The position numbers and the translations under genes were made by a program. The notes under the pieces are model-generated. The model worked only from the letters and a program-made list of their open reading frames with translations. It was not told where the DNA came from and ran no database searches. DNA of 64,000 bases, from the NCBI GenBank assembly GCA_038889235.1, contig JAWAHN010000001.1, positions 1-64,000 on the forward strand. Direction: 5' to 3'. Below are positions 3,725 through 50,658 of this stretch, piece after piece. Origin of the DNA: Candidatus Jordarchaeales archaeon. GTDB lineage: Archaea; Asgardarchaeota; Jordiarchaeia; Jordiarchaeales; Freyrarchaeaceae. The stretch's first letter is position 1. Each line of letters opens with the position of its first letter.

Positions 3725-3728
3725 CCGC

Positions 3729-4637
3729 TCACCTCCTCTCCTCTCTTTTCAGCCCGAAGAACTCGTACCATCCGCCCCTGCTTCCAGGGTTGAACTTCGG
3801 GTCGCCTAGGTAGCCTGAAAGGACTAGCTTTTTCAGGGTTACAGGCGGGGCGTATCGCTTCTCCCTTGTTTCCCTGTAAATGTACTCGCTGACTTGCAGC
3901 GCTGTGTGGAGCCCTGTGAAGTCCATTAGCTCGAAGGGGCCCATCGGGAAGCTGAAGGCGAGCTTGCACATCTCGTCGATCTCCTTTATTCCAGCTACCC
4001 CGGCCTCGAAAAGCCTTATAGCCTCCATGAACCAGCAGATCATGAATCTCGTCGTGAAGAATCCCGGCACGTCTTTTGCTTCTATCGGTGTCTTTCCAAG
4101 CCTCTTCGCCAGTTCTACTGTTAGCCTGTATGTTTCCTCAGACGTCAGTGCCCCCCTCACCACCTCCACTAGCTTCATCACGGGAGCCGGGTTGAACCAG
4201 TGCATGCCGATGAACCTGTCCTTCCTCTCGACGGCAGACGCGAGGTCACTTATCATTATAGCTGAGGTGCTTGAGGCGAAGACCACTTCCTCCCTGCATA
4301 TTTTGTCTAGCTCAGAGAAAACCTTCTTTTTCACCTCCACATCCTCTGGCACCGCTTCTACAACGAAGTCGACTCCTGCGAAGTCCCGCATGGAGGTTGT
4401 CGCCCTAATCCTGCTCATGATCTTCTCAACTTCGTCCGCCGCCAGGCGCCCCTTCTCGACGAGCCTCTCCAAGCCAAAGGCACCAGACCTTATCAGGGTC
4501 AACGCTCTCTTGAGTGTTTCCTCACTCCTGCTGAAGAGCACCACCTCGTACCCGCTTCTAGCACACACTTGAGCTATACCGTGCCCTATGGTGCCAGCTC
4601 CCAGAACACCAACTACTTTAATATCCTCTACCCTCAT
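3729..4637 (-). CDS. 3-hydroxyacyl-CoA dehydrogenase
   Basis: This NAD-dependent dehydrogenase oxidises 3-hydroxyacyl-CoA to 3-oxoacyl-CoA. The Rossmann nucleotide motif GVLGAGTIGHGIAQ is at the N-terminus, followed by SSTSA and the catalytic His in GMHWFNP. The C-terminal helical domain starts near DVPGFFTTR. The open frame extends to 4661, but ATG 4637 is preceded by GGAGGTG at 9 bases and gives the usual family N-terminus, so I prefer 302 residues. It is co-transcribed with the crotonase just downstream (4-base gap). No thiolase or acyl-CoA dehydrogenase is in the window. Confidence 0.95.
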   Translation of the reverse strand: MRVEDIKVVGVLGAGTIGHGIAQVCARSGYEVVLFSRSEETLKRALTLIRSGAFGLERLVEKGRLAADEVEKIMSRIRATTSMRDFAGVDFVVEAVPEDVEVKKKVFSELDKICREEVVFASSTSAIMISDLASAVERKDRFIGMHWFNPAPVMKLVEVVRGALTSEETYRLTVELAKRLGKTPIEAKDVPGFFTTRFMICWFMEAIRLFEAGVAGIKEIDEMCKLAFSFPMGPFELMDFTGLHTALQVSEYIYRETREKRYAPPVTLKKLVLSGYLGDPKFNPGSRGGWYEFFGLKREERR

Positions 4638-4705
4638 AGAAACCACCACCTCCACGAGCACGTAGAACTAAGGGGGAAAAGAGAGAGCCTTTTCTACAAA
4701 AAGGG

Positions 4706-4740
4706 GGCAAGCCGGGCCCTTAAAAAATAGGGGCCGGGTG
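4706..4740. terminator. Imperfect GC-rich hairpin between two minus-strand genes
   Basis: CCGGGCCC and GGGGCCGG flank TTAAAAAATA, giving about seven base pairs with one mismatch. The hairpin lies downstream of the RuBisCO-like gene and upstream of the dehydrogenase gene, so it may separate the two transcripts. This is an inference from position only. Confidence 0.35.
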
Positions 4741-4746
4741 CGTCTC

Positions 4747-6057
4747 TCACACTATCCTCGTCGCCTTCCAGGTTTTCAGCGCTACATCAAGTTCTTTGTG
4801 TTCTTTCGCCGCCTCCTCGAGCGGAATACCCTTCATAGTAGCCTCTACGGCTTGCCTGAAAGCCATGGCGCCCGCCCTGGGTCCCTGCGGGTGGGCGTGT
4901 ATTCCGCCCCCGACGCCTATCACTATGTCTGGTCCGAGGTCGAAGACTAGCAGGGGGACGTGTGAGGGTATTATTCCTCCAGACGGCATCGGGAAGACTT
5001 TCTTCAGGTGGTAGAACGGGTACCTTAGCACTTTAGCTATCTTGATGTAGTTTTCTCGCAGGAATGGGGCTTTGCCGTAGGGTGCAGGGTAGACGACTAT
5101 GTCGGCTCCAGCCATCCTCGGGAACTTGCCCATTATGAGGTGGGCGCTTAAACCGTACTCGGGTGACATGTATATCGCGCCCGTGAAGTCGGGGAGGTGT
5201 GCGAGTATCGGCACGTTTATGCTTGGGTCCTCGGCCAGGTCCCTTAGGGTTTCAAAGCCGACGGGGACGGCGTCCACCATAAGCGCGTTTCCGCCGAGCT
5301 CTATGACGCGGTCGGCTAGCTCTAGGACGCGGGAGGGCCTATCGGTTATGTTGACAGTGTAGAGCGTTTTCTCGCCTTTCTCCTCGTTCGCCCTGTCTAT
5401 CGCCTCCATGAACTTGACAACCCTATCCTCAACCCTATTGAGCTCCATGTCGGCTAGGAGCTCGTCGTCCTTTATTATGTCAACCCCTCCCGCGGCAACC
5501 TCGTAGGCGAGCTCGGCGCCTATGTCCGGAGGCGAGTAAACGCAGGGCTTTATCATGTTGTTTATGAGCGGTCTGTCCTTCACTCCGAGGATTTTCCTGA
5601 CGCCTTCTATGCCGAACTTAGCTCCCTTGAATCCCTCAACGAACTTTCTCGGGAAAGTTATGTCGAGCAGCTTTATTTTTCCCCCGGCCAGTATGTTGCC
5701 TGCAACGGTGGCAAGCAGGACGGGGAACTGGGAGCCGCAAAGGTTAACGAGCGGGAAGGCTATCTGGATTATGTACTGCCTCTCCTCTACGCCCTTGGGA
5801 AGCGACCACTGGTATGACGGGGCCTCGTAGACCCCGATCACCCTGGCAGCGTGTTTACGTTTAACTTCGGGAGTCTCCTTGGGTACCGGCGTCCAGGTTC
5901 CAGTGCTCTGCTCTATGGCGGCAGCCTGAGCCACCACGTTTGCATCCAGACCCGCGGGAAGCGAAACATAGTACGTCGCAACGACGTATTCTTCCGGGTC
6001 GAAGCCCTCGGGAAGCGCCTCGGGGGCGTCAATATACTCATACTCGAAGCCGCCCAT
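4747..6057 (-). CDS. RuBisCO-like protein (form IV, YkrW/MtnW-like)
   Basis: This is a full-length homologue of the RuBisCO large subunit, 436 residues from ATG 6057 (preceded by GGAGTGGTG); the frame extends to GTG 6072, used here for numbering. It keeps the TGTW and AGN motifs (residues 57-60 and 124-126), Lys175 (MIKP), the carbamylation and metal motif KDDE (201-204), a Lys in YGK (334), PSGG (363-366) and VGGGIHAHP. Three positions needed for carboxylation differ: IKPC instead of KPK, AHLP instead of HRAMH, and VVYPAPYGK instead of HSGTVVGK. The last two blocks resemble MtnW (2,3-diketo-5-methylthiopentyl-1-phosphate enolase). CO2 fixation is unlikely; an enolase or isomerase reaction is the family-based guess. 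No other methionine-salvage gene is nearby, so the substrate is open. Confidence 0.92.
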   Translation of the reverse strand: MGGFEYEYIDAPEALPEGFDPEEYVVATYYVSLPAGLDANVVAQAAAIEQSTGTWTPVPKETPEVKRKHAARVIGVYEAPSYQWSLPKGVEERQYIIQIAFPLVNLCGSQFPVLLATVAGNILAGGKIKLLDITFPRKFVEGFKGAKFGIEGVRKILGVKDRPLINNMIKPCVYSPPDIGAELAYEVAAGGVDIIKDDELLADMELNRVEDRVVKFMEAIDRANEEKGEKTLYTVNITDRPSRVLELADRVIELGGNALMVDAVPVGFETLRDLAEDPSINVPILAHLPDFTGAIYMSPEYGLSAHLIMGKFPRMAGADIVVYPAPYGKAPFLRENYIKIAKVLRYPFYHLKKVFPMPSGGIIPSHVPLLVFDLGPDIVIGVGGGIHAHPQGPRAGAMAFRQAVEATMKGIPLEEAAKEHKELDVALKTWKATRIV

Positions 6058-6072
6058 CTCACACCACTCCAC

Positions 6073-6903
6073 GGCCTTAAAAAGTCCTTCAAAATATTTG
6101 GGATATTATTAGTTATAAATTTGCCGAAAAAGGGGGAAGGCTTCTAGTCGGGCCGGCTGTAGAGTGGAGTGAATTCTTAGACACTGCTTGACTATTGAAG
6201 GTTGAGGCTGTTGACGCCAGCTTACTTTATGCTTAAAAGGGAGGGCTGTCTGCTCCATGTGGTGTGACGCCCCCACCCTTCAAACTTCCGCTTCCTCGCA
6301 GGTGGATGCGACCCGGCGCTCCAGAGTACCCGCGTCGTGAATGTTAGGAGGGGTTGTGGGCGCCGGGGGCTTTAACCCGTGTTACCCTTCCGTTGAAGGG
6401 GTGAAGCGTGGCTTGTGCGACCGCCCCCTCAGACTCAAATTTTCATCCTAGCTGCTCTTCAATCTCGTAGGTCGTGCTCCCTTCCCCCTGGGGGTCATAG
6501 AAACGGTGCGCCGAGTGTATTTGGGCGGCGTTCCTTCACGGCCGCTACTAACCCGGCTTAATCGTGGGGCGATGCGCGGTGCCAAAACTTTCTTTTAGCA
6601 GTGTGCAAGAGAGGCGCCTTCAGTGGCACGTGAGTTCGTTTCCACGATGGATGAGGAAAGGCCTCGCCCCTTCTTTTTAACGAAGTGTTCCTTTGAGGCT
6701 GTGAGCTCCCCGTCGGAGATGCATGCTTTCCTGGTAGGCTCAACCGGGCACGCATCTATGTGTAACAAACTTAAACCGCCAGGGGGAATTTAATTTCTAT
6801 GGGAAAGGAGGCGGAGCGCTTTAAAGGTGGGTTCGCGTGTTCGCCTACTGGCCTCGCGGATCCGCTGGAACCCTTATGCCTCTGTGGTTGAGGTTTCACT
6901 TTC
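6073..6903. other. Long gene-free region with GC-rich inverted repeats
   Basis: No convincing reading frame is present over about 830 bases. The stretch 6312-6400 can fold: CCCGGCGC (6312-6319) pairs with GCGCCGGG (6360-6367), and CCCTTC (6385-6390) pairs with GAAGGG (6395-6400) around CGTT. This could be part of an unrecognised structured RNA or the long leader of the radical SAM gene. I looked for and did not find the conserved elements of RNase P RNA, SRP RNA or a tRNA. Confidence 0.5.
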
Positions 6904-7962
6904 GTGGGGTGCTCGTTCTTGAGCGCGTATTGTAGCATGGTTAGGCAGGGTTATGCTTCAGGTAGCTGTATGGTTGAGATGGGCGACGGGTCGTTTAGGC
7001 CGGCGTGTAAGGCGACTCTTAGAAAGGAGGGGGACACCTGGTATAGGCTTATCAGGGCGGCTCACTTGTCTAGGCCGGAGGACTACCTCAGCATTTACCA
7101 GAGCGGGTGTAACCACAGCTGTTTGAAGTGCCACTCTTGGGATTTCTCGCAGAGGTATAATGGCTTCTGGGCTTCTGTTGAGGAGCTGGCTGAGATGGCG
7201 GCGGAGTACGAGGGGATTGTGACCGTCTGGGAACCTAGGGAGAGAGCGACAATGTTTCATGCCACCGACCTGTGCCACCACTGCGGCATGTGCGTCGTTT
7301 ACGGTGTGAGAGGGAGGCTTTGCCCCAGGAAGCTTAGGCGGGAGCAGGTTGTTTTGAGCCCGCAGGGGTATGGGCCTGCCAGGAACATTGTTTCGTTCAC
7401 CGGCGGCGACGTCGTCTGTCAGGCGGAGTTCTACGCTGAGGCGGCGGAGGCAATTAAGGACGCGTGCTCAAATATGTGGGTTCTCATTGAGACCAATGGT
7501 TACGGGCTCACGCCAAGGAACCTCGAGGTCCTAGCTTCCGGCGGGGTCGACTCTTTCTGGCTCGACATTAAGGCTTACGACGAGGAAGTTTATAGGCGCC
7601 TCTGCGGGACCACGAACAAGTGGATTCTGGAGGCGCCCGAGCTCATAGTTGACATGGGCTTCGTACTCGAGGTTCTAACGCTCTACATTCCGGGGTGGGT
7701 TGAAGTCGACCAGATCGTCAAGGTAGCTGAGCTCGTGCGCGACGTAGACCCGGAGATCCCCTTCACAGTCCTAGCATTCTTCCCAGCTTACAGGCTGTCT
7801 AACGTTAGGAGCCCAAGCCTTCTAGAGATGGTCAAAGCGTACCTCGCAGTCAAAGAGACGGGGCTGAAAAACGTTAAGCTGGGGAACTGCGGGGTCTTCG
7901 CGAGAACACGGGAGGACTGGGATATCCTCCTAGCAACCGTAGGACTGGAAGCCATAGGGTAG
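6904..7962 (+). CDS. Radical SAM protein, activase-like, with an extra Fe-S cysteine cluster
   Basis: This 352-residue radical SAM enzyme carries the CxxxCxxC cluster motif at Cys69, Cys73 and Cys76 (SGCNHSCLKC). A second group, Cys124, Cys127, Cys130 and Cys140, fits an auxiliary [4Fe-4S] cluster inserted as in glycyl-radical-enzyme activases. The SAM-binding GGD is in SFTGGDVV (about residues 160-168). Start GTG 6904 follows GAGGT at 9 bases. No glycyl radical enzyme gene lies beside it, so its target is unknown. The divergently placed RuBisCO-like gene is 0.8 kb away. Confidence 0.9.
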   Translation: MGCSFLSAYCSMVRQGYASGSCMVEMGDGSFRPACKATLRKEGDTWYRLIRAAHLSRPEDYLSIYQSGCNHSCLKCHSWDFSQRYNGFWASVEELAEMAAEYEGIVTVWEPRERATMFHATDLCHHCGMCVVYGVRGRLCPRKLRREQVVLSPQGYGPARNIVSFTGGDVVCQAEFYAEAAEAIKDACSNMWVLIETNGYGLTPRNLEVLASGGVDSFWLDIKAYDEEVYRRLCGTTNKWILEAPELIVDMGFVLEVLTLYIPGWVEVDQIVKVAELVRDVDPEIPFTVLAFFPAYRLSNVRSPSLLEMVKAYLAVKETGLKNVKLGNCGVFARTREDWDILLATVGLEAIG

Positions 7963-8060
7963 CCCAGTGAAAGCCGGCAAAATATTCCATCTACTCGCCT
8001 ACAACCACCGGCGGATTCCACCCAGGGGCGCCGCGCTAGGAGTCCATGCTGCGCTGGGCG

Positions 8061-8732
8061 TTAAAGCCAACCCTTCTCCTTCCAGTACTCGTAGTCCTTT
8101 TTGAAAAAGTCTCTCCCCTCGTATATGAGCTTCTTTAGCGCTTGGAAGTCCTTCGACTTCGCCACGAAAGCCTCCCAGTCAAACGTCTTCTTCTCCCTTA
8201 TAGCCTGAACCATCTCCCTGCCTAACCTAGCAGCTTTATCGAGGTCTTCTTCTGAGACGTCTATGATGTTTCGCGCCAGAGCGGTAACGGTGCCGACCGG
8301 GTACGCCCCCTGAAACGCGAGCAACATGAGCATGTAGCGCGCAACAGCCTCCACGTCCCCGACGCCGAGGTAAACGGATATGGCCGCCGCGTACTTCCCA
8401 TGCAAGCTAGGCCTGTGGCCCATGGGAAGACACCTATCGATGAAGTTTTTCATAAGCCCGGTTACGTGGAGAAAGTAGACGGGGCTAGCCATCACTATTC
8501 CGTCAGCACTCATCATCTTACCCTGAATGAGTTTCACGTCGTCCTTCTGGGGGCATTCTCCCTCAACCAGGCAGCGCCCACACCCCTTACAGTAGTTGAC
8601 CTTGTAGTCCTGCAACAAGACTATCTCTGTTTCGGCTCCTAGGGACGCGCACTCGTCAAGCATCCGCTTCGTAAGCCTATAAGTGCAACCCCAATCTTTA
8701 TGAGGGCTGCCAACTATGGCCAAAATCTTCAT
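8061..8732 (-). CDS. Iron-sulfur flavoprotein / NADPH-dependent FMN reductase family protein
   Basis: A flavodoxin-like fold is shown by the FMN phosphate-binding start ILAIVGSPHK and the MASPVYFLHVTGLMKNFIDR segment. The compact cysteine motif at Cys48, Cys51, Cys54 and Cys60 is that of archaeal iron-sulfur flavoproteins (Isf), which bind a [4Fe-4S] cluster and FMN and pass electrons, for example to O2 or peroxide. The 223-residue length fits. ATG 8732 has a strong AAGGAGGG site. A TATA-like element (8768-8778 on the minus strand) and a perfect 12-base palindrome lie just upstream. Confidence 0.93.
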   Translation of the reverse strand: MKILAIVGSPHKDWGCTYRLTKRMLDECASLGAETEIVLLQDYKVNYCKGCGRCLVEGECPQKDDVKLIQGKMMSADGIVMASPVYFLHVTGLMKNFIDRCLPMGHRPSLHGKYAAAISVYLGVGDVEAVARYMLMLLAFQGAYPVGTVTALARNIIDVSEEDLDKAARLGREMVQAIREKKTFDWEAFVAKSKDFQALKKLIYEGRDFFKKDYEYWKEKGWL

Positions 8733-8767
8733 GAAAAACCCTCCTTAAGGGCTGGTTTTAGGCAGAA

Positions 8768-8797
8768 ATAAAAAGTTTTTGCATTCCAGTGCACTGG
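8768..8797 (-). promoter_or_regulatory. Promoter of the flavoprotein gene with an upstream palindrome
   Basis: On the minus strand CTTTTTATTTC (8768-8778) is a good archaeal TATA element, about 40 bases before the ATG. Directly upstream is the perfect palindrome CCAGTGCACTGG (8786-8797), at the place where an activator or repressor would touch the TFB/TBP complex. No regulator can be assigned. Confidence 0.5.
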
Positions 8798-9120
8798 CTG
8801 CAGGCGCTAAGCCGGTCAACGCGTTGCTAGACGCGTCACAGCAAAAGAAGTGCACCACCTCCAGAACCCTTCTTCAACTGAGAGCGAGCGAAAACACGCC
8901 ACAGAAAATCTCAGCTTCAAGCAGACTTCGACCTTAAAACAAGCAGGCACCCGGGCTTAGCAGCGTCCAGAAAAGGGCGAGGTAAAGGTGTCTGAGCAAG
9001 TTTAACGCGTCCCAGCCAAGGGGCAGTCAAGGGTGCTGCAATAACCGTTCCAAGATTAAAAGCTCGACAAATGGAGGAGGCGGGAACGTGCTTCAACCAA
9101 ACAACAAGTCGGAGATCACA
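8798..9120. other. Intergenic region between two divergent genes
   Basis: No gene is seen here. The hexamer ACGCGT occurs at 8819-8824 and 8831-8836 and once more near 9005, but nothing else stands out. An open frame beginning at 9088 only extends the following acyl-CoA synthetase upstream of its promoter. Confidence 0.4.
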
Positions 9121-9123
9121 CAC

Positions 9124-9146
9124 CCTTTAAATAAATTTTATATATC
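9124..9146 (+). promoter_or_regulatory. TATA region of the acyl-CoA synthetase gene
   Basis: CCCTTTAAATAAATTTTATA is an AT-rich box with a BRE-like CCC start. It predicts transcription from about 9150-9170, which rules out the in-frame start at 9088 and supports a start near 9205. Confidence 0.55.
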
Positions 9147-9204
9147 GGCTATGTCTAAAGAGAATAGCTTAGGGTGGGGATTTGCTGTTAGGGGGAAGGT
9201 TGAG

Positions 9205-10872
9205 GTGAGTGTTGTAAAAGGGTTTCCCAGCACCATGATGGACGACTACCAGCTGAACGTGATAAAGGTCCTAGAGAACGCCGCTAAAATCTATGGTAAG
9301 AAGGAGGTTGTATCGAGGAGAGTAAGTGACGGGAGCATTTTCCGCTACACGTACAAGGATGCTTGGGAGAGGGTTCAGAGGGCTGCCAACTTCTTGGTTA
9401 ACGAGTTGGAAGTCAAGCCCGGAGATAGAGTTGGTGTCATAGGGTGGAATACGCACAGGTTCTTCGAGCTTTACTACGCTGTACCAGGCATAGGCGCCGT
9501 GGTGCACGAAATAAATCTTAGGTTGAGCCCGGACGACCTAGTGTACATAATAAACCATGCGGGCGACAAGGTACTTTTCCTAGACGACGGGCTTGTCAGA
9601 CTGCTGGTCGAAGGAATAAAGGATAGGCTTGAGACCGTTGAGAAGTTCGTGGTGATGAGTGACAGCAAAGAGGTTGAGACAAGCCTCAAGCCGGCCTACA
9701 ACTACGAGGCTTTAATGGATAGCGCAAAGCCGAGTTTCAAGTTCCCTGTTATAGACGAGCGCAGCGGCGCCGCAATGTGTTACACCACGGGCACGACTGG
9801 TAGGCCGAAGGGCGTTGTTTACAGTCACAGGGCGTTGATCCTCCACTCGATAGTGGCAGGTTTACCTTCAACCATAAATGTGAGTGAAAAGGACGCCATG
9901 CTGGTTTTAGTGCCCATGTTCCACGTCAACGCGTGGGGGATGCCGTACGGCGCCCCAGCGGTTGGAGCCAAGCTGATCTTCCCGGCACAGTTCTATGCAC
10001 CCGACATGATACTTGAACTCATAGAAAAGGAGAAGGCCACTATAGCGGCATCGGTTCCGACAATATGGATCATGGTAGTAGACTACTTGAAGAAGACGGG
10101 TAAAAAAGTTGATCTCACCGGTCTCAAAGTGGTTTTCGGCGGCAGCGAGCCGCCGCTGGCTCTCATGAAAGCTCTAGCCGAAATGGGAGCGACTGTCCAG
10201 CACGCCTGGGGGATGACGGAGACAACGCCTCTGGGAACGGCGAACATAATAAAGAGTTACCTTGAGGAGACTCTTTCAGAAGAGGAGAGGTGGAAGCTAA
10301 TGACCAAGCAGGGATTAGCTGCGCCGCTACTGGAGATCAAGATAGTCGACGAAGCTGGAAACGAGCTACCGTGGGACGGTAAAACACCGGGAGAGCTGCT
10401 GATAAGGGGGCCGTGGGTGACCAAGAGCTACTACAACGATGAAAGGTCTAAGGATGCACTTCTAGACGGGTGGTTCAGGACGGGCGACATAGCCACAATA
10501 GACCCCGAAGGATACGTCAAAATTGTCGATAGAGCTAAGGACTTGATCAAAAGTGGAGGGGAATGGATTAGCAGCGTTGACCTCGAAAATGCCATAATGG
10601 CTCACCCCGGCGTCAAGGAAGCCGCGGTGATAGCCGTCAAGCACCCGAAATGGCAGGAGAGACCCCTAGCCGTAGTTGTTCCGAGGGACGAGTACAAGGG
10701 CAAGCTGACAAAGGAGGAGATAATAGAGTTCATTAGACCGAAGTTCGCCAAGTGGTGGCTCCCAGACGACGTGATCTTCGTCAACGAAATACCCAAGACC
10801 AGTGTAGGGAAATTCGACAAAAAAGTTCTAAGAGAGAGGTACAAGGACTACAAGTTACCGACAGCCGAGTAA
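9205..10872 (+). CDS. AMP-forming acyl-CoA synthetase (fatty-acid CoA ligase family)
   Basis: This ligase activates a carboxylic acid to acyl-AMP and then acyl-CoA. It has the phosphate-binding [15 protein letters not shown] motif, the adenine/Mg motif [10 protein letters not shown], the hinge [30 protein letters not shown] and the catalytic lysine near the C-terminus in [12 protein letters not shown] choose GTG 9205 (555 residues) because GGGGGAAGG lies 5 bases before it and the TATA element lies at 9124-9146; ATG 9235 is also possible. The medium/long-chain branch is likely. Together with the crotonase and dehydrogenase genes it suggests fatty-acid or aromatic/short-chain acid oxidation. 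The exact substrate is unknown. Confidence 0.95.
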
Positions 10873-10932
10873 CCCCCTTTCTTCCCTTTTTCCAAAATAT
10901 TTTTCCAAAAATAGAATGAAGGGAGCAGCCCC

Positions 10933-11319
10933 CTATATTTCTAGGGGTGTGCTTTTCTCTATGCACTCCTTATGTCTTTGGAGCATGTCGTCGATGATCC
11001 TCTTCAGGTTTTCCTTCGGCATGAAGCCCACAACTTGACCTACGATTCTTCCAGCACAGAAGAAGACGAGGGTTGGTGTGCCCATAATACCGTAGTTTAG
11101 GGCCAGTCTCCTGTTCCCCGGGCTCTGAAGCACGTTAAGCTTAACAAACTTCACCTTCCCCTTGTACTCTTTTGCAAGCTCGTTTATCACAGGGTCAAGC
11201 ATAAGGCACCATCCACAGCGCTCATGCCAGAAATCCACAACGGTAAGCAACTCAGACTTCAAAACCTCGCTACCCCAGTTAATGTAATCTACGTCTAAAA
11301 CAGACAAGCAGACCACCAC
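10933..11319 (-). CDS. Thioredoxin-family protein with CGWC active site
   Basis: This 128-residue thioredoxin-fold protein has the active site HERCGWC at about residues 33-39 and the cis-proline in MGTPTLVFF. The usual site is CGPC; Trp in place of Pro is uncommon and would shift the redox potential. There is no signal peptide, so it is cytosolic. It lies alone on the minus strand, convergent with the acyl-CoA synthetase. GGAGGAG lies directly before the GTG start at 11319; the GTG or TTG codons slightly downstream are alternative starts. A disulfide reductase role is likely. Confidence 0.92.
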   Translation of the reverse strand: MVVCLSVLDVDYINWGSEVLKSELLTVVDFWHERCGWCLMLDPVINELAKEYKGKVKFVKLNVLQSPGNRRLALNYGIMGTPTLVFFCAGRIVGQVVGFMPKENLKRIIDDMLQRHKECIEKSTPLEI

Positions 11320-40104: not shown

Positions 40105-40572
40105 TCAACTCGAATCTACCAGCTTCACACCGTTCTCGCAAAAGGAGCCTTTTCTCGCTTCAACTATCTTTTCGGCGAGCTTTTCAACGCAACTCAAAAG
40201 TGTGTCTCTATCGCCAGCCATTACAGCTCTCACTATGATTAACGCGTCGAAATTAGGGAGGTACCGCTCAACAAGCTCTTCTACAATGCAGATGATCAAA
40301 GCCTTGGCAGAGCTTTCAAATCCGCCGAGCGCCCTGACCATCTTTTCGAATGACCCTCTAGGGTTTTCCAAGAAACTTTTCATAACTTCAATAGAGTCCT
40401 CTGAGCCGAACTCGTCCATTATCATGTCACATAACGTCTTAATGCAAATGGAGCCGTAAGCCAGTTTAGAATTCTTCAAGCATTCGTCAATCTCCATTAA
40501 GATTATTTTAGAGATATTTAACAAGTCCATAATGTCAGTCACCACATTCGTGCAAAATAAACACGACATCAA
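40105..40572 (-). CDS. Helical protein of unknown function in an AT-rich patch
   Basis: This 155-residue protein is helical, with several cysteines (CLFC near the N-terminus, CIKTLC near 43-48). No family is recognised. The beginning is AT rich, and its upstream region (40573-40720) has the lowest GC of the window. The first 14 residues may be untranslated (ATG at MDLLNISK is possible). Confidence 0.6.
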   Translation of the reverse strand: MMSCLFCTNVVTDIMDLLNISKIILMEIDECLKNSKLAYGSICIKTLCDMIMDEFGSEDSIEVMKSFLENPRGSFEKMVRALGGFESSAKALIICIVEELVERYLPNFDALIIVRAVMAGDRDTLLSCVEKLAEKIVEARKGSFCENGVKLVDSS

Positions 40573-41259: not shown

Positions 41260-42135
41260 ATGCTGGCCATGAAGGTTGGCAGGAAGGCGTTCAAGCGGTT
41301 GTTAGATGAACTGGAATTCGATAGCCTCCTCCAATTGATGACTAGTTGGGGGATTAGCGTTGGAGGAGTTGAGGATAGGGAGGAGGTGTTTAGGAGGGTT
41401 TGGGAGGCGGGGGTAACGCCCGTCAGGCTTGAGGACCTACTGGCGGTTCTCGACCTGAAGCAAAGCTTAGCGTCCACTTTTTGGCGTGTTTATACTTTTC
41501 AGCGCTCTGGCGGCCTTATTAGAGCTGGAACTGTGGAGCGTAGACTTAACAGGGAGCTAAGCAAGAGACTTAATGGAGCCAGCGGTACCGGCTACTTTAG
41601 GGCTCTGAACATGAGCGGGTTCGTCTACGTCTTTTACAGGTTTGAGAGGGATGAGCTTGTTGGAGAAGCGGAGGGGGTTAGGATAGGGCGCAGAGTTTGC
41701 CACATGAAGTCCATCGTGGGTGACAGATTGCTTCTGGTTGAAGACGCCGGGTGGCTTGAGTGGGTTTTAGACCTGTTTTCGATTGCCCTAAGAGCCGAGC
41801 TTAACGTAGTGACATTCCCCCCTTTCCTGCTGAGGGAGATCGCTGAGCGGAGCATTGTCAAGCGTGCAGTCCTTTTCCTCGACGGACAGATAACAGGCGC
41901 CCCGGGGCTAAGCAGGGTGACCGTGGAAGGGGATAACGTCGTTAAGGGAGCCGAGAAGCTTAGATCACGTCAGGAACTAAACTTTTGGTCCGCCGGCCCC
42001 CTTCTCGAGGTAGAAACCGACGAGTTCGCGTTTTCAGCGGACGGGCGGGTGAAGGTAAAAGAGGGGGGAATAGCTGGAGTAAAGAAGATGCTGCTGTTCA
42101 TAAAGGATCTGCTAGAATCCCTAGAGAAAACGTAG
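41260..42135 (+). CDS. Protein of unknown function (mixed alpha/beta)
   Basis: This 291-residue protein begins with a helical region (about 1-75, with EVFRRVWEAGVTPVRLEDLL) and has alternating strands and helices afterwards. The start is ATG 41260 or ATG 41269. It is transcribed with YjbQ. I recognise no family and no catalytic motif. It lies just before the KaiC/longin cluster but is separated from it by 230 bases. Confidence 0.75.
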   Translation: MLAMKVGRKAFKRLLDELEFDSLLQLMTSWGISVGGVEDREEVFRRVWEAGVTPVRLEDLLAVLDLKQSLASTFWRVYTFQRSGGLIRAGTVERRLNRELSKRLNGASGTGYFRALNMSGFVYVFYRFERDELVGEAEGVRIGRRVCHMKSIVGDRLLLVEDAGWLEWVLDLFSIALRAELNVVTFPPFLLREIAERSIVKRAVLFLDGQITGAPGLSRVTVEGDNVVKGAEKLRSRQELNFWSAGPLLEVETDEFAFSADGRVKVKEGGIAGVKKMLLFIKDLLESLEKT

Positions 42136-42366: not shown

Positions 42367-43086
42367 TTGGAGCGAGTGAAAACTGGAGTTGAAGGGCTTG
42401 ACAAAATTCTTGGTGGAGGAGTTCCCAAGGGCTCGAGCGTGTTGGTGACTGGTGGGACGGGTACTGGTAAGACGACGCTTGTTATGCAGTTCCTGATGGA
42501 AGGGTTGCGGAACGGTGAAAGCTGCCTCCTGATTACGTGCGAGGAGGAGCCGCGCAGGCTGTACATAGAGATGAAGCAGCTCGGGTGGGATTTCGAAAAG
42601 TTTGAGAAAGAGGGGAAGCTTGTGGTGATTGACGCCGCAAGCACTAAAGTCGGTATGCCGACCACCACTATATATAAAGAGTTACAGCCGAAAAGCACTA
42701 GCATAGACATGGACCTAGTAGTCCTCATAGGTAAAGCGATAAAGGAATGCAATGTTAAGAGGGTTGCCCTTGACTCTGTGCCAGCGCTAGCCCTAAGGGT
42801 TAGAAAAGCAGAGACGTTGAGGGAGTTGTTGTTCAGGGTGTACTCTATGTTGGAGCGCTTTGATTGCACGAGCTTTGTTGTGACGGAGATACCGGAGGGG
42901 AAGAGCGCCCTTAGCAGGTATGGTGTGGAGGAGTTCCTCTCGAGTGGAGTTATAAAGCTCTCCCTTCAGAAGGAGGGGGAAAAGTGGGTTAGGAAGATGC
43001 AAGTGGTGAAGATGAGGGGGACGAAGCACGACCTTAACGAGCACACGTTTGAAATAGCGGAGGGAGGGATAAGGCTTAAGGATTAA
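42367..43086 (+). CDS. KaiC-like RecA-superfamily ATPase, single domain
   Basis: This 239-residue protein has the KaiC-family start TGVEGLDKILGGGVPKG, Walker A GGTGTGKT (29-36), ITCEEEPRR, and the Walker B-like RVALDSVPAL. It is one KaiC domain. Such archaeal proteins act as ATP-driven regulators; the circadian KaiA/KaiB partners are absent. TTG 42367 has GGAGGT seven bases before. It ends 28 bases before a two-domain relative and heads a cluster with longin, acetyltransferase and roadblock genes. Confidence 0.93.
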   Translation: MERVKTGVEGLDKILGGGVPKGSSVLVTGGTGTGKTTLVMQFLMEGLRNGESCLLITCEEEPRRLYIEMKQLGWDFEKFEKEGKLVVIDAASTKVGMPTTTIYKELQPKSTSIDMDLVVLIGKAIKECNVKRVALDSVPALALRVRKAETLRELLFRVYSMLERFDCTSFVVTEIPEGKSALSRYGVEEFLSSGVIKLSLQKEGEKWVRKMQVVKMRGTKHDLNEHTFEIAEGGIRLKD

Positions 43087-43113
43087 TTTGAGGAGCACCT
43101 AAGTCTCCCTCTG

Positions 43114-44514
43114 ATGGGTGAAATATCTATGGAGAAACAGATGGGCGCCGGGGAGGAGTTGAAGGGTGGAGTTGTTAAGAGCGGGATTGAAGGCTTAGAT
43201 GAAATCCTCGACGGCGGATTTGACCCGGGAAACGTTACTCTCCTAGCAGGCCCTCCCGGCTCCGGTAAGAGCATAATGTCAGCTCAGTTTATCTACAATG
43301 GCGTAGTGATGTATGGTGAAACTGGTATCTACGTGAACTTCAGCGAGAGCAAAAGCGACTTCATGAGGAACATGGCGAGGCTTGGAATGGATTTTAGCCG
43401 CCTTGAGGAGGAAGGGCGCTTCAAGTTCATTGACGCTTACAACATTTTCAGTAAGAGGAGCCTGGACCTTATAGTATCTCACATATTAGACGAGATTACA
43501 ACATTTAGGATTAGAAGAATGGTGTTAGACCCAATAAACGCCATTACGGCACTAATGGATAAGGAGGAGCTTAGAGCATTCGTAATCACCACAATTATGG
43601 GTATCTGTAAGGTTAACAATGTGACATGCATGCTCGTGAGCAATCAGCACCAAGGAATGGTGGATGAGAAGCTCGCCGAGCTGGCTTTCATGTGTGACGT
43701 TGTAATCAGGCTTGAAACCAAAATGGTAGGGGACGTCGTTGAAAGGTTTCTCGTTGTGGAGAAGGCTAGAGGGAAGAGGAACATTGTTTCGAGGACGGAG
43801 TACCTTATAACTGATAGCGGTATAGTAGTTTTCACGCTTCCATCGAGGCCTCTCGCAAAAGAGAGGTGGTTGGAGGAGAGTGTCGGCATAGGACACGTGG
43901 AGTTTGACGAGAAAGTGTTAATGGGAGGCGTTAAGAGGGGGACTGTGACGCTTATCTCAGGGCCGGGAGGGGTGGGAAAAAGTGTTTTGCTGGTTGAGTT
44001 CGCCGCTTCGGGAGTTCTCAGAGGGGAAAGAGTGCTCTATGTCACGTTCAGGGATTTGAAAGGAGTGGAGAAGGCTTTCAGTGGTAGGGGTTATAATATT
44101 GAAGAGCTTAAGAGGACTGGGTTAAAGCTCATCGAGTTCCAACCATTTAAGGTTACTCCTGGAATGATGTTGGTAACGTTGAAAAAGGTGTTGGACGACT
44201 TCCAGCCAAGTAGGGTGGTGGTGGAGGAAGTAGCGTCATTAAGATGGCTTCCTAGAGAAGAGTACTGCCGACTGATAAACAAAATGGTATCCCTCTTTAA
44301 GAGCTACAATGTAACCGCGATGATAAGTTCCGGAATTGATACGAACGTTATGGAGGCTGATGAATTCATGGCAGCCGACAACGTGATCCATATTTGGAGG
44401 GAGAGGAAAGGGGGAGAAGCCGTTAGAAAGATTTCCGTTATCAAAATGAAGGGTGTTCATGACAGGAGAATAAGGGAGCTTGTTTACGGGGAAGGAGAGA
44501 TTAAGGTTTTCTAG
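43114..44514 (+). CDS. KaiC-like ATPase with two RecA domains
   Basis: This 466-residue protein has two KaiC domains. The first has SGIEGLDEILDGGFDPGN and GPPGSGKS (46-53); the second has VEFDEKVLMGGVKRGTVTLI and GPGGVGKS near residues 283-290. Both Walker A motifs are intact. The start is ATG 43114 or ATG 43129. It is probably the central ATPase of the cluster, acting as a ring. No autophosphorylation site can be assigned from sequence. Confidence 0.93.
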   Translation: MGEISMEKQMGAGEELKGGVVKSGIEGLDEILDGGFDPGNVTLLAGPPGSGKSIMSAQFIYNGVVMYGETGIYVNFSESKSDFMRNMARLGMDFSRLEEEGRFKFIDAYNIFSKRSLDLIVSHILDEITTFRIRRMVLDPINAITALMDKEELRAFVITTIMGICKVNNVTCMLVSNQHQGMVDEKLAELAFMCDVVIRLETKMVGDVVERFLVVEKARGKRNIVSRTEYLITDSGIVVFTLPSRPLAKERWLEESVGIGHVEFDEKVLMGGVKRGTVTLISGPGGVGKSVLLVEFAASGVLRGERVLYVTFRDLKGVEKAFSGRGYNIEELKRTGLKLIEFQPFKVTPGMMLVTLKKVLDDFQPSRVVVEEVASLRWLPREEYCRLINKMVSLFKSYNVTAMISSGIDTNVMEADEFMAADNVIHIWRERKGGEAVRKISVIKMKGVHDRRIRELVYGEGEIKVF

Positions 44515-44548
44515 GCTTTGAAGGAGGCTGAGTGAAGGAGGAGTGAAC

Positions 44549-45187
44549 TTGTTTAGAGGAGTGGTTGTTGTGAGCTTTGACTACAAGCTTGGACCTATCG
44601 TGGAGGCAACGTTCCCCGAAGGGGTTGTTCCGAAGGAGTCCTTATGGGACCTAGCTGTGGATGTTTGGATGAGCATTTTTTCAGGGGAGATAACTGAGGA
44701 TTCCAACCAGAAAATTTACGGTAACCTTGGAAGACTCGCATTTATATCTTTCTGCGAGAACAGCGAGAACTACGCCGTGATCGCTTTGTTCGATGAAAGT
44801 GACGGGGGGACAGTTTGGCAGTTCAAAGACACGTTAAAAGAAGTTATAGGTAGAGCAGTTGAAAACCTAAGGAAGGGAACTAGAAGTACGGACGTTGCAC
44901 GAACCGTTTACGAAGAGATAAACGGGATAATCGCCGGGCCAAGAAAATTGCCGATCGAAGTGTACAATGACGTTACGAGGATGTACGACGCGTTAGGGAA
45001 CATTCTGAAACTAGTGAACGAGGTCAAGGAGAGTGATGTTAAAAATAAGTTGATCACTGCTGTGGCGGAGTTGTCTGATAGAATAGCGGACCTCGTGCTC
45101 AACCTGGCTTCACTCTGGGGGGACAGAGAAATTATAAATTCACTAATCCGCAAAGCGGAGGGGGCGGAGTTGAAAGGGGTGAGATAA
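44549..45187 (+). CDS. Longin-like domain protein, paralogue A
   Basis: About 212 residues. The N-terminal 120 residues (RGVVVVSFDYKLGPIVEATFPEGVVPKESLWDLAVDVWMSIFSG and a long strand/helix pattern) fit a longin or profilin-like fold like those in archaeal trafficking and GTPase-partner proteins. It is followed by a helical tail. A paralogue lies at 45819. TTG 44549 has GGAGG seven bases upstream. The fold is my inference from the pattern; I cannot confirm it without a structure search. Confidence 0.7.
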   Translation: MFRGVVVVSFDYKLGPIVEATFPEGVVPKESLWDLAVDVWMSIFSGEITEDSNQKIYGNLGRLAFISFCENSENYAVIALFDESDGGTVWQFKDTLKEVIGRAVENLRKGTRSTDVARTVYEEINGIIAGPRKLPIEVYNDVTRMYDALGNILKLVNEVKESDVKNKLITAVAELSDRIADLVLNLASLWGDREIINSLIRKAEGAELKGVR

Positions 45188-45189
45188 AA

Positions 45190-45705
45190 TTGCGTCCGTC
45201 GGAAATCCAGTGTTTTCAGAGGAGGATAGTGTTGAGGGACGGGTCAAGGGTTTTGATAAGGGCGCTGACTCCTGCTGATGCGGCAAAGCTGCTGAGATTC
45301 TACAGCTTGCTGTCGACCGAGACAAATTACTTGCGCTTCCTTAATTACAGGCCTTCTTCGAGCTGGGTACTGGAGGGGCTTGCAAACGTCAACTTCGAGG
45401 ATAATGTAGCCCTTGGAGCTTTCACCGAGGATGGGGAGCTGATTGGCGACGCAAGGTTCTCGCTTGACAGGAAAACCGGGAGAGCTGAAATAGGGATAGT
45501 AGTTGCAGACGAGTGGCAAGGGAAGGGGTTGGGGCTGAACATGATCCAGACGCTTGGCTACATAGCTATGAGGATGGGTGTTAGGACGCTTTACGCAACA
45601 GTATCCCCAGTCAACTACTTCGTAGCCGCAGCCCTTAGAAGCGCAGGGTTTAGAAGGGTTAAAGCCGAAATATTGGAAGAAAGAATTTTTGAGGCAGACC
45701 TCTGA
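45190..45705 (+). CDS. Pat-like GNAT protein lysine acetyltransferase
   Basis: This 171-residue GNAT enzyme begins RRIVLRDGSRVLIRALTPADAAKLLRFY, close to the acetyltransferase domain of bacterial PatZ/Pat and Sulfolobus Pat. The acetyl-CoA-binding QGKGLG is in DEWQGKGLGLNMIQTLGYIA, and VSPVNYFVAAALRSAGFRRV ends the fold. Pat enzymes acetylate lysines in acyl-CoA synthetases and, in Sulfolobus, in Alba. It starts 2 bases after the longin gene stop, between two longin paralogues. The window encodes AMP-forming and ADP-forming acyl-CoA synthetases and a deacetylase-fold enzyme that could be functionally linked. Confidence 0.88.
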   Translation: MRPSEIQCFQRRIVLRDGSRVLIRALTPADAAKLLRFYSLLSTETNYLRFLNYRPSSSWVLEGLANVNFEDNVALGAFTEDGELIGDARFSLDRKTGRAEIGIVVADEWQGKGLGLNMIQTLGYIAMRMGVRTLYATVSPVNYFVAAALRSAGFRRVKAEILEERIFEADL

Positions 45706-45818
45706 AAAAGCTTCAGTTCGCAAGCATCACGGCAGTTTTCAAAAAAAATCGCAATATCTGAGAGAAAAAATAAAAATTTTAAGTGAATGACCAACTATAT
45801 TTTGTCGGAGGCGTTCGT

Positions 45819-46460
45819 TTGAGTTCGACTGTCGAGATAAAATTTCAGGTTCAATGCCGTGGAGTTATGCTCATAAGGTTTGATTACATTGTAGGACCAT
45901 TGGTGGAGAAAATCTTTCCTCACGGCATCATACCCGAGGAATTGTTGTGGAATCTCGCCCTCGATGTTTGGATGAGCATGGGAACTAAAAGCATGGAGGA
46001 AGGGTATAGTACCACAGTGTTTCTTAAGGACATTAACATGTTCGCCTGCCTGGTTTCAGGGGGGAGTGGCGGAGGGACACCGTACGTCATGGCAGCCCTA
46101 TTTAACCCTGAGGGTATGGGCAGCTTCTGGAGTGTTAGAGATAAAGTTGCTGGAGCCCTACTTGAACACATTAAAAGGATTAGGAGAGGAGAGGACGTTG
46201 AAAAAGTAGTTACAGAGGCGTACGACGCGGTGGTTAAAACCACGTTGGGCCCTGTGAACGTGGGAATTTCCAGCACCTTTCTACATGACACGGCGAAGTT
46301 CGTCGCAAAACTGGTGTTCCACGTTCAAAGCACAGGCAAGTGGGACAACGAACTAAGAGAGATGCTGAGAAGTTACGTGGAGCGCCTCGCAGACGAAGCA
46401 AGCAAGACAAGTAACAACGAAGTACTCAGAGAGCTTGTCAAATTGAAACCTTTCTTGTAG
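45819..46460 (+). CDS. Longin-like domain protein, paralogue B
   Basis: This paralogue of the gene at 44549 has RGVMLIRFDYIVGPLVEKIFPHGIIPEELLWNLALDVWMSM in the same positions and a similar helical tail. About 213 residues from TTG 45819 (GGAGG seven bases before); the open frame runs to 45783. It differs from paralogue A by a glycine-rich loop (GGSGGGTPYVMAAL). The duplication flanks the acetyltransferase gene. A helper in protein complexes or GTPase regulation is a family-based guess. Confidence 0.7.
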   Translation: MSSTVEIKFQVQCRGVMLIRFDYIVGPLVEKIFPHGIIPEELLWNLALDVWMSMGTKSMEEGYSTTVFLKDINMFACLVSGGSGGGTPYVMAALFNPEGMGSFWSVRDKVAGALLEHIKRIRRGEDVEKVVTEAYDAVVKTTLGPVNVGISSTFLHDTAKFVAKLVFHVQSTGKWDNELREMLRSYVERLADEASKTSNNEVLRELVKLKPFL

Positions 46461-46701
46461 GTAGGACTTTAACTTGGGAAATTTTGTCGAGTGAGGGTTT
46501 AGTTTCTCAGCCGACCACTCCAAGTGGCTAAACAGTTTTCATTCATGAACCTGCACTCATTATTGTTTTTTAACAGTTTCATTCATGCATTGTGTTTCTT
46601 TTTACATTTGTTGCGAAATTTTTATCACACTTACTTTTCTCCAAAATACTTATATCGAAGTGAAACCTTTTAAAAATACGAGAAAGGTTGGGGTAGTAAA
46701 A
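46461..46701. promoter_or_regulatory. Regulatory gap with two near-identical direct repeats
   Basis: AACAGTTTTCATTCATG (46531-46547) and AACAGTTTCATTCATG (46572-46587) are spaced 41 bases apart. CCACT-CCA-AGTGG forms a small hairpin at 46515-46527. A TATA-like ACTTATAT lies near 46648, about 50 bases before the ATG of the next gene. The repeats may be operator sites, but lie somewhat upstream of the promoter. Confidence 0.45.
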
Positions 46702-47190
46702 ATGATTCACAACGTTTACATCATGAGAAGGAGCGGCGAGTGCTTAGTGAGCAGAAAGTACGGTAGTCTCGAGGCGGATGACGACCTCGTTACAGGATTC
46801 CTTAGCGCCATACTAAACTTCAGCGAACAGATAGACGGGGAACGAGTTGAAAGCATAATAATGGGTAACAAGAAGTTCGTCTACACCATAATGAACGACG
46901 TCATATTCATAGCTTACGCAGATAAAGAAGACTCGGTTAAGGAGAGCCTGGAACTTCTAGGACAGAGGTTCTTAGAGAAGTACGGTGATGCGCTCAAAAA
47001 CTGGAGTGGAGACAAGAGCATATTTGAGGACTTCACGAGCACCATGGACGAAATATTGGGGGAGAAGGGAGGGAGCAGGGACCTGAAACTGGATGAGGTT
47101 ATTGATAAGCTGAAGAAAGGTACGATCTCGGCGACAGAGGCGACACAGCATCTCGTCGAATTCTTCCTCAAAAAAGTTAAAAGTAAGTGA
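46702..47190 (+). CDS. Third longin-like protein
   Basis: ATG 46702 has AAGGTTGGGG upstream and gives 162 residues. The N-terminus MIHNVYIMRRSGECLVSRKYGS, with two more strands and helix, resembles longin domains where the first strand carries I-Y-x-x-G. The C-terminal 50 residues are helical (DEVIDKLKKGTISATEATQHLVEFFLKK). It shares only a general pattern with paralogues A and B. The fold is inferred, not proven. Confidence 0.65.
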   Translation: MIHNVYIMRRSGECLVSRKYGSLEADDDLVTGFLSAILNFSEQIDGERVESIIMGNKKFVYTIMNDVIFIAYADKEDSVKESLELLGQRFLEKYGDALKNWSGDKSIFEDFTSTMDEILGEKGGSRDLKLDEVIDKLKKGTISATEATQHLVEFFLKKVKSK

Positions 47191-47328
47191 GCAAGCGAAC
47201 AGTAAGGAAAGAGTAGTGTAGAAAGGGGGCGCTCAAAGTTAGTTGACAAGTTCTCCATCGTTTTAAAAACGTGATTTTAAAGCTGCAATTTTCAAATGGT
47301 TTAAATTATTTTGGGTGTTCGAACAGTT

Positions 47329-47706
47329 TTACGACAGTACTTTTGCGAGCTTCTCTTTAGTTACACCTAGCTCTGTTATAATTAGTCCCATGTTGGCGTC
47401 TGGTCGGGTGACTGCGGCTAGGATGTGCTTGTCGTCAACTCCCATTATTACCACTATTCCCGCCCTGCCACTCACTACAATTCGCTGAATTTCTCCTAGT
47501 GAGAGTTCTTTGATCGCCCTAAGCCCTATGTTGTAGATGGCGGCGCTCATCGCAGCTATGAGGTTTTCGTCTCCATACTTTATCGCGGATGCCAAGATGA
47601 GGCCGTCTTTTCTAACTACCGCCGAGGCTTCTATGTCCGGGTCAGATGCCTCCATCTCTTCTAACACGTTTACCAGTTTTTCTTTAAGAGCTTTCATTTT
47701 CATCAT
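47329..47706 (-). CDS. Roadblock/LC7 (MglB-like) protein
   Basis: This 125-residue protein is a single roadblock/LC7 domain: DPDIEASAVVRKDGLILASAI, AMSAAIYNIGLRAIKELS, RIVVSGRAGIVVIMGVDDKHILAAVTRPDANMGLI. Family members dimerise and bind small GTPases or longin partners; MglB is a GTPase-activating protein. It is convergent with the longin cluster. No small GTPase gene is in the window. Starts at ATG 47706. Confidence 0.92.
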   Translation of the reverse strand: MMKMKALKEKLVNVLEEMEASDPDIEASAVVRKDGLILASAIKYGDENLIAAMSAAIYNIGLRAIKELSLGEIQRIVVSGRAGIVVIMGVDDKHILAAVTRPDANMGLIITELGVTKEKLAKVLS

Positions 47707-47811
47707 CCTTCAAGAACATTTTAAAAGACTTTGAGTAGCTTTACATTTAAATCTTTCGTCTGAACCTGCGACTTTAACAATAAATTGCATTGATTATTGA
47801 GACATTTTCAT

Positions 47812-49584: not shown

Positions 49585-50658
49585 CTACCTCTTACTCCGC
49601 TTCTTTCCCTCTAGTATTGCCATGCCGAGCTCTACCACCCTGTTGAAGGGTTCTTCCCACTTTTCCCTCAGCTTTATTGATATAGCATTAGCCGGGCACT
49701 TTGTAGCGCACAGGCCGCAGCCGAGACACCTCTCCTCGTTAACCACTGCTACCTCTTCGAGTGTTACCGCCCCGACGGGGCATCTTTCGACGCACGTGCC
49801 ACACCCTATGCAGGACTCTGGGTCGACGACGGATCTGAATATTGCGTTAATGTATTTATGGACTTCGTAGCCCCTCTTCGTTATCCCCTTGAGGGAGGCG
49901 CAACAGCAGGGGCAACAGTTGCACACGTTTGAGAGGTGCTTTGCGTTGACGGAGGCGTGGACGAGGCCCGCATCGTCAGCCTCCCTTATGATTTTCACAG
50001 CTTCCTCGGGCTTTATCTCCTCCGCCCACCCGTTCTCAATGTAGTATTCGGCTGCAACTCCGAAGCTCAAGCACGTCTCGAGCGGGTATTCGCACCCTTC
50101 ACCGTTGAGCCTAGCCTCTTTCCTGCAAATGCACTCTGTTACTGCAGCCACGCGGGCGTTCCTTACCAGCTCCTCCAGCTTAAGGTAGGGGAGGAGAACC
50201 GTCCCGGCGGCTATGTTCTTTTCGAGCGGGAGGACTTTAAAGCCTGGGACATTGCTCGCCCCCATCTCGTCCACGTACTTTGTCTCGTAGTACTCTTTGT
50301 ATAGCCGGGCGAGCTCCTCGTCTATCTTCTTCACCGAGTACTCGTATAAGCCTATCATGAATGGGGCGGCGTTATAGAACACCTTGCCTTCACGCCTGAT
50401 GCGGAAAACAAGCCCCTTCCTTGACATGGACTCAAGCATCTCTGCAAGGCTTTTCTCGTCTATACCGGTGCGCTCAGCTATCTGGGAGACTTCCTCGGGG
50501 AAGGGAGAGAGGAGGACGAAGAGGCGTGCCTCATCTTCGCTGAAAAGCCTCTTAAGTATCTTAAGCTCGACGCCGCTGGGCGTGGCTGGAAAACCTAGAG
50601 GGAACTTGTCTAGGAACTCGCGTAGCTTTACGTAGGCATCGTCAGACAAAACCACCAC
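49585..50658 (-). CDS. Winged-helix and multi-cluster ferredoxin fusion protein
   Basis: Residues 1-115 look like a winged helix (FPEEVSQIAERTGIDEKSLAEMLESMSRKGLVFRI). The middle has CICRKEARLNGEGCEYPLETC and CNCCPCCC, a cysteine-rich core. The C-terminus has two [4Fe-4S] motifs, CIGCGTCVERCP and CLGCGLCATKCP. It may be a redox-responsive DNA-binding protein or an electron carrier in an anaerobic dehydrogenase system. Similar ferredoxin-like proteins with a CNCC motif occur widely in anaerobes with unknown function. Start GTG 50658 or the TTG shortly after. Confidence 0.88.
   Translation of the reverse strand: MVVLSDDAYVKLREFLDKFPLGFPATPSGVELKILKRLFSEDEARLFVLLSPFPEEVSQIAERTGIDEKSLAEMLESMSRKGLVFRIRREGKVFYNAAPFMIGLYEYSVKKIDEELARLYKEYYETKYVDEMGASNVPGFKVLPLEKNIAAGTVLLPYLKLEELVRNARVAAVTECICRKEARLNGEGCEYPLETCLSFGVAAEYYIENGWAEEIKPEEAVKIIREADDAGLVHASVNAKHLSNVCNCCPCCCASLKGITKRGYEVHKYINAIFRSVVDPESCIGCGTCVERCPVGAVTLEEVAVVNEERCLGCGLCATKCPANAISIKLREKWEEPFNRVVELGMAILEGKKRSKR

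Follow-up and report, generated by a model that had tools for sequence, protein, structure and literature searches.

Longin and roadblock proteins are docking platforms for small GTPases in eukaryotes. KaiC is the ATPase of the cyanobacterial clock, and KaiC-family ATPases are thought to act as signalling hubs in archaea, a proposal reportedly made by Makarova, Galperin and Koonin in mBio in 2017. Here, we describe a cluster of seven genes in which the two kinds of protein are encoded side by side. It occupies positions 42367–47706 of a window of 64,000 nucleotides (positions 1 to 64,000 of contig JAWAHN010000001.1, assembly GCA_038889235.1) from the Asgard archaeon Candidatus Jordarchaeales, and comprises genes for two KaiC-family ATPases (KaiC1 and KaiC2d), three longin-like proteins (LonA, LonB and LonC), a Pat-like acetyltransferase of the GNAT kind and a roadblock protein (Robl). 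All seven are present where an earlier note on this DNA had placed them, six on the plus strand and Robl on the minus strand. Judged from sequences, gene neighbourhoods and predicted folds, we put the probability at about 0.5 that these genes encode a signalling module of Asgard archaea, one that couples ATPases of the KaiC family to longin/roadblock platforms.

The idea of archaeal KaiC hubs is cited in PMC5847659. The longin, roadblock and GTPase folds and fusions of Asgard archaea are treated in PMC10933270, according to which the GTPase genes of MK-D1 are generally not in operons with roadblock or longin genes. A full-text literature search returned no paper joining KaiC with longins, or KaiC with Asgard small GTPases; the original 2017 hub proposal lay outside this search and may mention roadblock or longin partners.

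Conservation of the Gene Cluster

The comparison set consisted of 228 Asgard genomes. The class of the source genome (G000) is represented by eight genomes, and three relatives from its own genus (G001, G002 and G003) were compared with it directly. In G002, the entire gene order is kept, from a gene upstream of the cluster (41260–42135) to one for a ferredoxin-like protein (49585–50658). In G003, the order is kept from LonA downstream to the contig end, with KaiC1 and KaiC2d together on a separate small contig, and in G001 it is kept from LonB to the contig end. Identities to the G002 proteins are 84% for KaiC1, 64% for KaiC2d, 66% for LonA, 91% for GNAT, 64% for LonB, 80% for LonC and 82% for Robl. 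The cluster is more than a chance association, since order and spacing are kept in G002, and partly in G003 and G001, and since the adjacency of KaiC and longin genes recurs in other Asgard families, as described below.

KaiC, Longin and Roadblock Proteins

Both KaiC proteins score above the gathering cut-off of 26.6 bits for PF06745. KaiC1 (42367–43086, plus strand) is a single-domain ATPase (239 bits, E = 4.9e-71) in which the Walker A motif GGTGTGKT and the catalytic-glutamate stretch CEEE are both intact in the alignment. KaiC2d (43114–44514, plus strand) is a double-domain protein that matches the family in two stretches (247 bits, E = 1.9e-73). Its first domain keeps the Walker A motif GPPGSGKS and has SE in place of EE, and in its second domain the glutamate pair is missing, with RD instead. 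Furthermore, G002 has lost the second-domain Walker A motif (GMGGAEEK), and G003 has a changed one (GPGGTGKR). Because of these changes, KaiC2d may be partly inactive. Elsewhere in the source genome, the gene for a GvpD-like ATPase, a member of the KaiC superfamily, immediately precedes that of a KaiC2d paralogue (L122, G000:C3:206000-222000, positions 6278–9312).

With sequence profiles, no longin family was found above threshold for LonA, LonB or LonC; the Pfam matches were sub-threshold, to the Afi1 docking domain for LonA (0.04–0.08) and to Fuz_longin_1 for LonC (0.11). The Pfam longin models are tuned to eukaryotic members. A LonA family profile run against the PDB sequences matched only designed helical proteins and the like, over the helical C-terminal half, and was uninformative. 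LonA (44543–45187, plus strand) was modelled with AlphaFold2 from its own sequence and four homologues, with a predicted local distance difference test (pLDDT) score of 78. The model comprises a longin domain (residues 1–131) with the order beta-beta-alpha-beta-beta-beta-alpha-alpha, followed by a helical C-terminal extension. Its top PDB match in Foldseek was the longin domain of the Lokiarchaeal roadblock-longin protein 8yqg (E = 1.4e-4, probability 1.00). The next matches, with weaker E-values, were the longins of GATOR1/SEA, FLCN, SMCR8–C9orf72, DENND1A and Lst4; here the alignments covered mainly the longin part, at template modelling (TM) scores of 0.2–0.5, and LonA is not assigned to those families.

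LonC (46702–47190, plus strand) was modelled from its single sequence (pLDDT 68) and also has the longin topology. It matched the adaptin sigma (AP-2) and mu, Sec22b, COPI zeta and VAMP7 longins with E-values of 6e-6 to 1e-3 (6e-6 to 1e-4 for AP-2 sigma, Sec22b and COPI zeta). Thus, longin topology and a fold match to solved longins were found for both LonA and LonC. LonB (45819–46460, plus strand) is a longin by homology: it is paralogous to LonA, as the earlier note had recognized, with 31% identity (E = 2.6e-21). We call all three proteins longins because of these predicted folds and because of the GTPase fusions of their relatives. The models support the presence of two longin kinds in the window, a LonA kind similar to GATOR1, FLCN and DENN and a LonC kind similar to adaptin sigma and the SNAREs. 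The open reading frame of LonB begins at 45783; the TTG codon at 45819 is most likely the start, since it is conserved in the relatives. For LonC, whose reading frame opens at 46585, the relatives and the promoter make the ATG at 46702 the most likely start.

Robl (47329–47706, minus strand), which is convergent to LonC, matched the roadblock family Robl_LC7 (PF03259) with 41.9 bits against a gathering cut-off of 23 (E = 8.7e-11), and the Thorarchaeal roadblock protein 7f8m in the PDB (6.7e-13).

KaiC and Longin Genes in Other Asgard Archaea

The strongest hint of joint action between KaiC and small GTPases came from a second cluster in the source genome, in which genes for a KaiB-like protein, a KaiC, a KaiC–small GTPase fusion (379–387 amino acids) and a roadblock protein lie in a row (L123, G000:C1:420000-438000, positions 8327–11141; the KaiB-like gene is at about 430.7–431.1 kb of G000:C1). 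The same row is conserved in the sister family (L127, G007:C50:196000-210000, positions 5577–9080). To our knowledge, a KaiC–GTPase fusion has not been described.

KaiC-family genes also adjoin longin genes without such fusions. In two genomes of putative Odinarchaea, genes for a LonC-like protein, a LonA-type longin and a KaiC form an operon, with gaps of 12 and 11 base pairs (bp), followed by a 1297-residue protein. (The latter has a signal-peptide-like start; L153, 1170–7316, and L167, 4104–10254.) In two species of Baldrarchaeota, a degenerate GvpD-like double ATPase lies beside the LonA-type gene lon210, at a distance of 18 bp in L008; two further LonA-type genes and a Rab-like GTPase gene are near by. 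Three genomes of family f18 encode a GvpD-like ATPase, a Rab-like GTPase and a LonA-type protein with a Rag domain; this domain matched Pfam in one genome (L163) and was identified in the other two through similarity or a profile. A 19-kb stretch in sister family f2 holds genes for a KaiC, a GvpD-like ATPase, a double KaiC, a Rab-like GTPase, a LonC-like protein, three longin–Arf fusions and a fusion of a LonA-type longin to the TackOD1 output domain, and in G009 a KaiC, a coiled-coil protein and a longin–Arf fusion are encoded in a row.

The frequency of such proximity was evaluated in five genomes against a Poisson expectation, ignoring contig ends and counting in the starting locus. A longin gene was found within 3 kb of 8 KaiC loci, compared to 2.2 expected (P = 2e-3), and a longin, GTPase or roadblock gene was found near 13, compared to 5 expected. 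The chance adjacency of a KaiC gene and any LonA-type gene is about 3–7% per genome, so its repetition in four families, conserved between species, is unlikely to be due to chance, although this estimate ignores kinship. That KaiC is repeatedly paired with longin/roadblock genes in distant Asgard lineages suggests a signalling module of a kind not yet described.

The longins themselves are widespread. A profile of LonA-type longins, run against the 228 genomes, identified them in 179, and relatives of LonC were present in 220. The LonA-type gene adjoins a LonC–Arf fusion gene in families f1, f2, f3, f5 and several others; in the first three of these, the two genes are 6 to 29 bp apart. Other fusions join LonA-type domains to Rag, to Rab-like GTPases (by phmmer), to a TrmB-type helix-turn-helix (HTH) and to TackOD1. 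Pairs of a LonA-type gene, some with a TrmB-like HTH, and a longin–Arf fusion gene are conserved in many Asgard families (L173, 5925–7999; L168–L172; L176, 4088–6067; L028, 6992–8922). At one locus (L136, G009:C70, 462–2408), a LonA-type gene adjoins a gene whose sequence, as far as its beginning shows, is actin-like.

The Pat-Like Acetyltransferase

The GNAT gene (45190–45705, plus strand) encodes a protein of 171 residues with an intact acetyl-CoA motif, QGKGLG. Its closest curated model is the NCBIfam model of Pat (1.6e-18), with a score far under the cut-off of that full-length model, and its PDB matches are the Streptomyces Pat structures 4nxy and 4u5y and the mycobacterial Pat 4ava. The cluster protein has neither the cyclic nucleotide monophosphate (cNMP)-binding domain nor the acyl-CoA-synthetase-like domain of Pat enzymes.

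Whether this protein belongs to the module can be argued either way, and of all the alternatives considered here, the one that concerns GNAT survives best. GNAT might simply be a Pat-like enzyme with a housekeeping role that rides in the operon and has, for example, acyl-CoA synthetases or Alba as its targets, which would be compatible with a KaiC–longin module. We consider the chance of this to be slightly short of even. GNAT evolves much more slowly than its neighbours (91–92% identity in two relatives, compared to 54–67% for LonA, LonB and KaiC2d), and its relatives in the sister family lack KaiC or longin neighbours; yet in three species it sits between both paralogous longin genes, only 2 bp from LonA, and in G009 a GNAT relative, with KaiC near by, lies 0.6 kb from a GvpD-like ATPase gene and 1.5 kb from an apparent acyl-CoA synthetase gene.

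KaiC-family genes near apparent acyl-CoA synthetase genes were seen at two loci, one in the source genome (L158, G000:C1:184000-196000, 3242–6812) and one in G009, where a GNAT gene lies between them (L200, G009:C12, 1517–7373).

Acetylation as a general output of such modules was rejected as unsupported beyond the genus, given the neighbours of the sister-family relatives. An acetylation output of the module in this genus is possible.

Transcription Units

The gaps between KaiC1, KaiC2d, LonA and GNAT are 27, 28 and 2 bp, in keeping with the close spacing that the earlier note had remarked upon, and such short gaps fit its single operon extending to at least 45705. GNAT and LonB are separated by 113 bp, and LonB and LonC by 241 bp; LonB, LonC and Robl are probably each transcribed from a separate promoter, judged from promoter-like sequences, and a single operon reaching past the first four genes is doubtful. 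TATA-like sequences upstream of LonC and Robl are conserved in four species, and an A/T-rich sequence occupies the same position upstream of LonB. The TATA-like sequence in front of LonC is CTTATAT (46649–46655, plus strand).

All three genes are also preceded by a TCGCA core in four of four species. Upstream of LonB it takes the form TCGCAAT (45749–45755, plus strand), likewise conserved in all four. Upstream of LonC it lies on the minus strand and reads TTGCGAA on the plus strand (46611–46617), with TTGCGA conserved in the four species. Before Robl, on the minus strand, the element (47765–47771) is followed by the B recognition element (BRE)/TATA-like sequence ACGAAAGATTTAAAT (47745–47759), which is found in all four species with small changes. 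In G002, all four TCGCAAT sites within 18 kb sit upstream of KaiC1, LonB, LonC and Robl. In G003, all three sites are upstream of LonB or LonC, and two of them form a perfect inverted pair, ATTGCGA-N10-TCGCAAT, before LonC. Over the whole window there is no excess of TCGCAAT (8 sites, compared to 5.5 expected), and the interest of the element is positional only; a comparison restricted to intergenic sequence gave modest odds (7.5e-3 for G002), and the species compared are related. A shared regulator acting through this element would tie Robl to the cluster, which we regard as a lead. Elsewhere in the source genome, TCGCAAT also precedes a gene for a Rab-like GTPase and one for a roadblock protein (L157, G000:C2:238000-252000, positions 4506 and 7808).

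The separate promoter-like sequences of LonB, LonC and Robl, together with the opposite orientation of Robl, would also be expected if two or three unrelated transcription units merely lay side by side: a KaiC–LonA–GNAT operon, LonB and LonC with a general role in GTPase regulation, and Robl as part of the enoyl-CoA hydratase side. Some proximity is indeed to be expected, LonC-type and roadblock genes being common in the source genome (11 and 12 matches). This explanation is nevertheless unlikely in view of the gene order conserved in the genus, the TCGCA element common to the three promoters, and the independent KaiC–LonA–LonC operon in Odinarchaea.

Among the surrounding sequences, the conserved gene upstream of KaiC1 (41260–42135) encodes a protein of 291 residues without a Pfam match, and a small protein containing cysteines, for which a weak match of the saposin-B-like kind was obtained (E = 0.074), is encoded further upstream (40105–40572). 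Scanning the window for Rfam families and tRNA genes yielded no matches.

Discussion

A KaiC-centred module can fairly be inferred because there is support for both folds, longin and roadblock, and because conservation was found in relatives, two of the points on which the earlier note had suggested that its proposal be checked. The case is strengthened by the second cluster of the source genome, where a KaiC–small GTPase fusion adjoins a roadblock gene. In such a module, KaiC1 would provide the ATPase activity, and KaiC2d would be a partner or adaptor that is itself partly inactive. LonA/LonB and LonC would pair as longin dimers, perhaps with Robl dimers alongside, and these platforms would sense the state of KaiC, whether of bound nucleotide or of oligomerization, and relay it, as regulators similar to guanine nucleotide exchange factors (GEF) or GTPase-activating proteins (GAP), to small GTPases encoded elsewhere. 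The least certain step is that the Pat-like GNAT would be the effector, with lysine acetylation switched by the module. The earlier note had proposed a KaiC-driven module with an acetylation output; of this, the KaiC part is supported by folds, conservation and the KaiC–GTPase fusion, with a core wider and better supported than the note could see (KaiC, longin, roadblock and small GTPase), and the acetylation part is weaker and limited to the genus.

Several observations weigh against the module. The cluster itself encodes no small GTPase. The enrichment of longin genes near KaiC loci (8 compared to 2.2) is modest, with the locus from which the analysis started among those counted, and the LonA-type genes inspected in the largest family, f19, have no KaiC neighbour. 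KaiC2d and the GvpD-like ATPases belong to different subfamilies, so the associations may in part be of independent origin. The LonA and LonC models were built from inputs of five sequences and one sequence, respectively, and the linkage of GNAT is confined to the genus, save for the one loose neighbour in G009.

The missing GTPase gene could also mean that the longin/roadblock platform serves KaiC itself, with no small GTPase involved, KaiC having taken the place of the Arf, Rag or Rab of other Asgard longin loci. Both the window and the Odinarchaeal operon have LonA-type, LonC-type and KaiC genes together without a GTPase gene, and elsewhere the LonA/LonC pair carries an Arf domain. However, the source genome has 14 Arf/Ras-type GTPase matches outside the cluster, and its KaiC–GTPase fusion with a roadblock partner suggests joint action of the two switches, which makes a platform serving KaiC alone improbable. 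A circadian clock (KaiABC) was rejected, as both cluster KaiCs score far below the equivalog cut-offs (134 and 129 bits compared to 546 for circ_KaiC; 181 and 217 compared to 408 for PRK09302) and the cluster has no KaiA or KaiB, and a defence or phage system was likewise rejected, PHROGs giving no longin matches and PADLOC P-loop matches alone (mads_8, 1.6e-11, for KaiC2d).

If KaiC is wired to longin/roadblock platforms in Asgard archaea, partners could be named for orphan archaeal KaiC proteins, and there would be a concrete, testable complex for the pre-eukaryotic state of GTPase control by GATOR1, FLCN, DENN and the adaptins. The longins of GATOR1 (NPRL2/NPRL3), FLCN–FNIP, C9orf72–SMCR8 and DENN are the nearest eukaryotic longins to the LonA fold, and relatives of LonA are fused to Gtr/Rag GTPases; the sequence identity to LonA is only about 10–16%, and the comparison covers the longin part. 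We know of no KaiC partner for the eukaryotic proteins. It is conceivable, if rather doubtful, that one Asgard longin/roadblock platform carries both KaiC-family ATPases and small GTPases as nucleotide switches, in alternation or jointly, that the GATOR1/FLCN/DENN longins have an archaeal relative in the LonA family, and that the GTPase regulation of nutrient response and membrane traffic in eukaryotes grew from a platform first shared with KaiC signalling.

The MglA–MglB polarity system likewise includes a roadblock protein, which regulates a Ras-like GTPase; the present cluster differs in having no GTPase and in having longins and KaiC in addition. With the Asgard proteins described in PMC10933270, the cluster and its relatives share the roadblock and longin folds and the fusions among longin, roadblock and GTPase domains, whereas the MK-D1 genes are generally not in shared operons and KaiC is absent from that paper. 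There is also a likeness to the proposed archaeal KaiC hubs: in both, KaiC-family ATPases, some with inactive domains, are arrayed with signalling genes, but here the partners are longin and roadblock proteins and, in the relatives, Arf, Rag and Rab GTPases.

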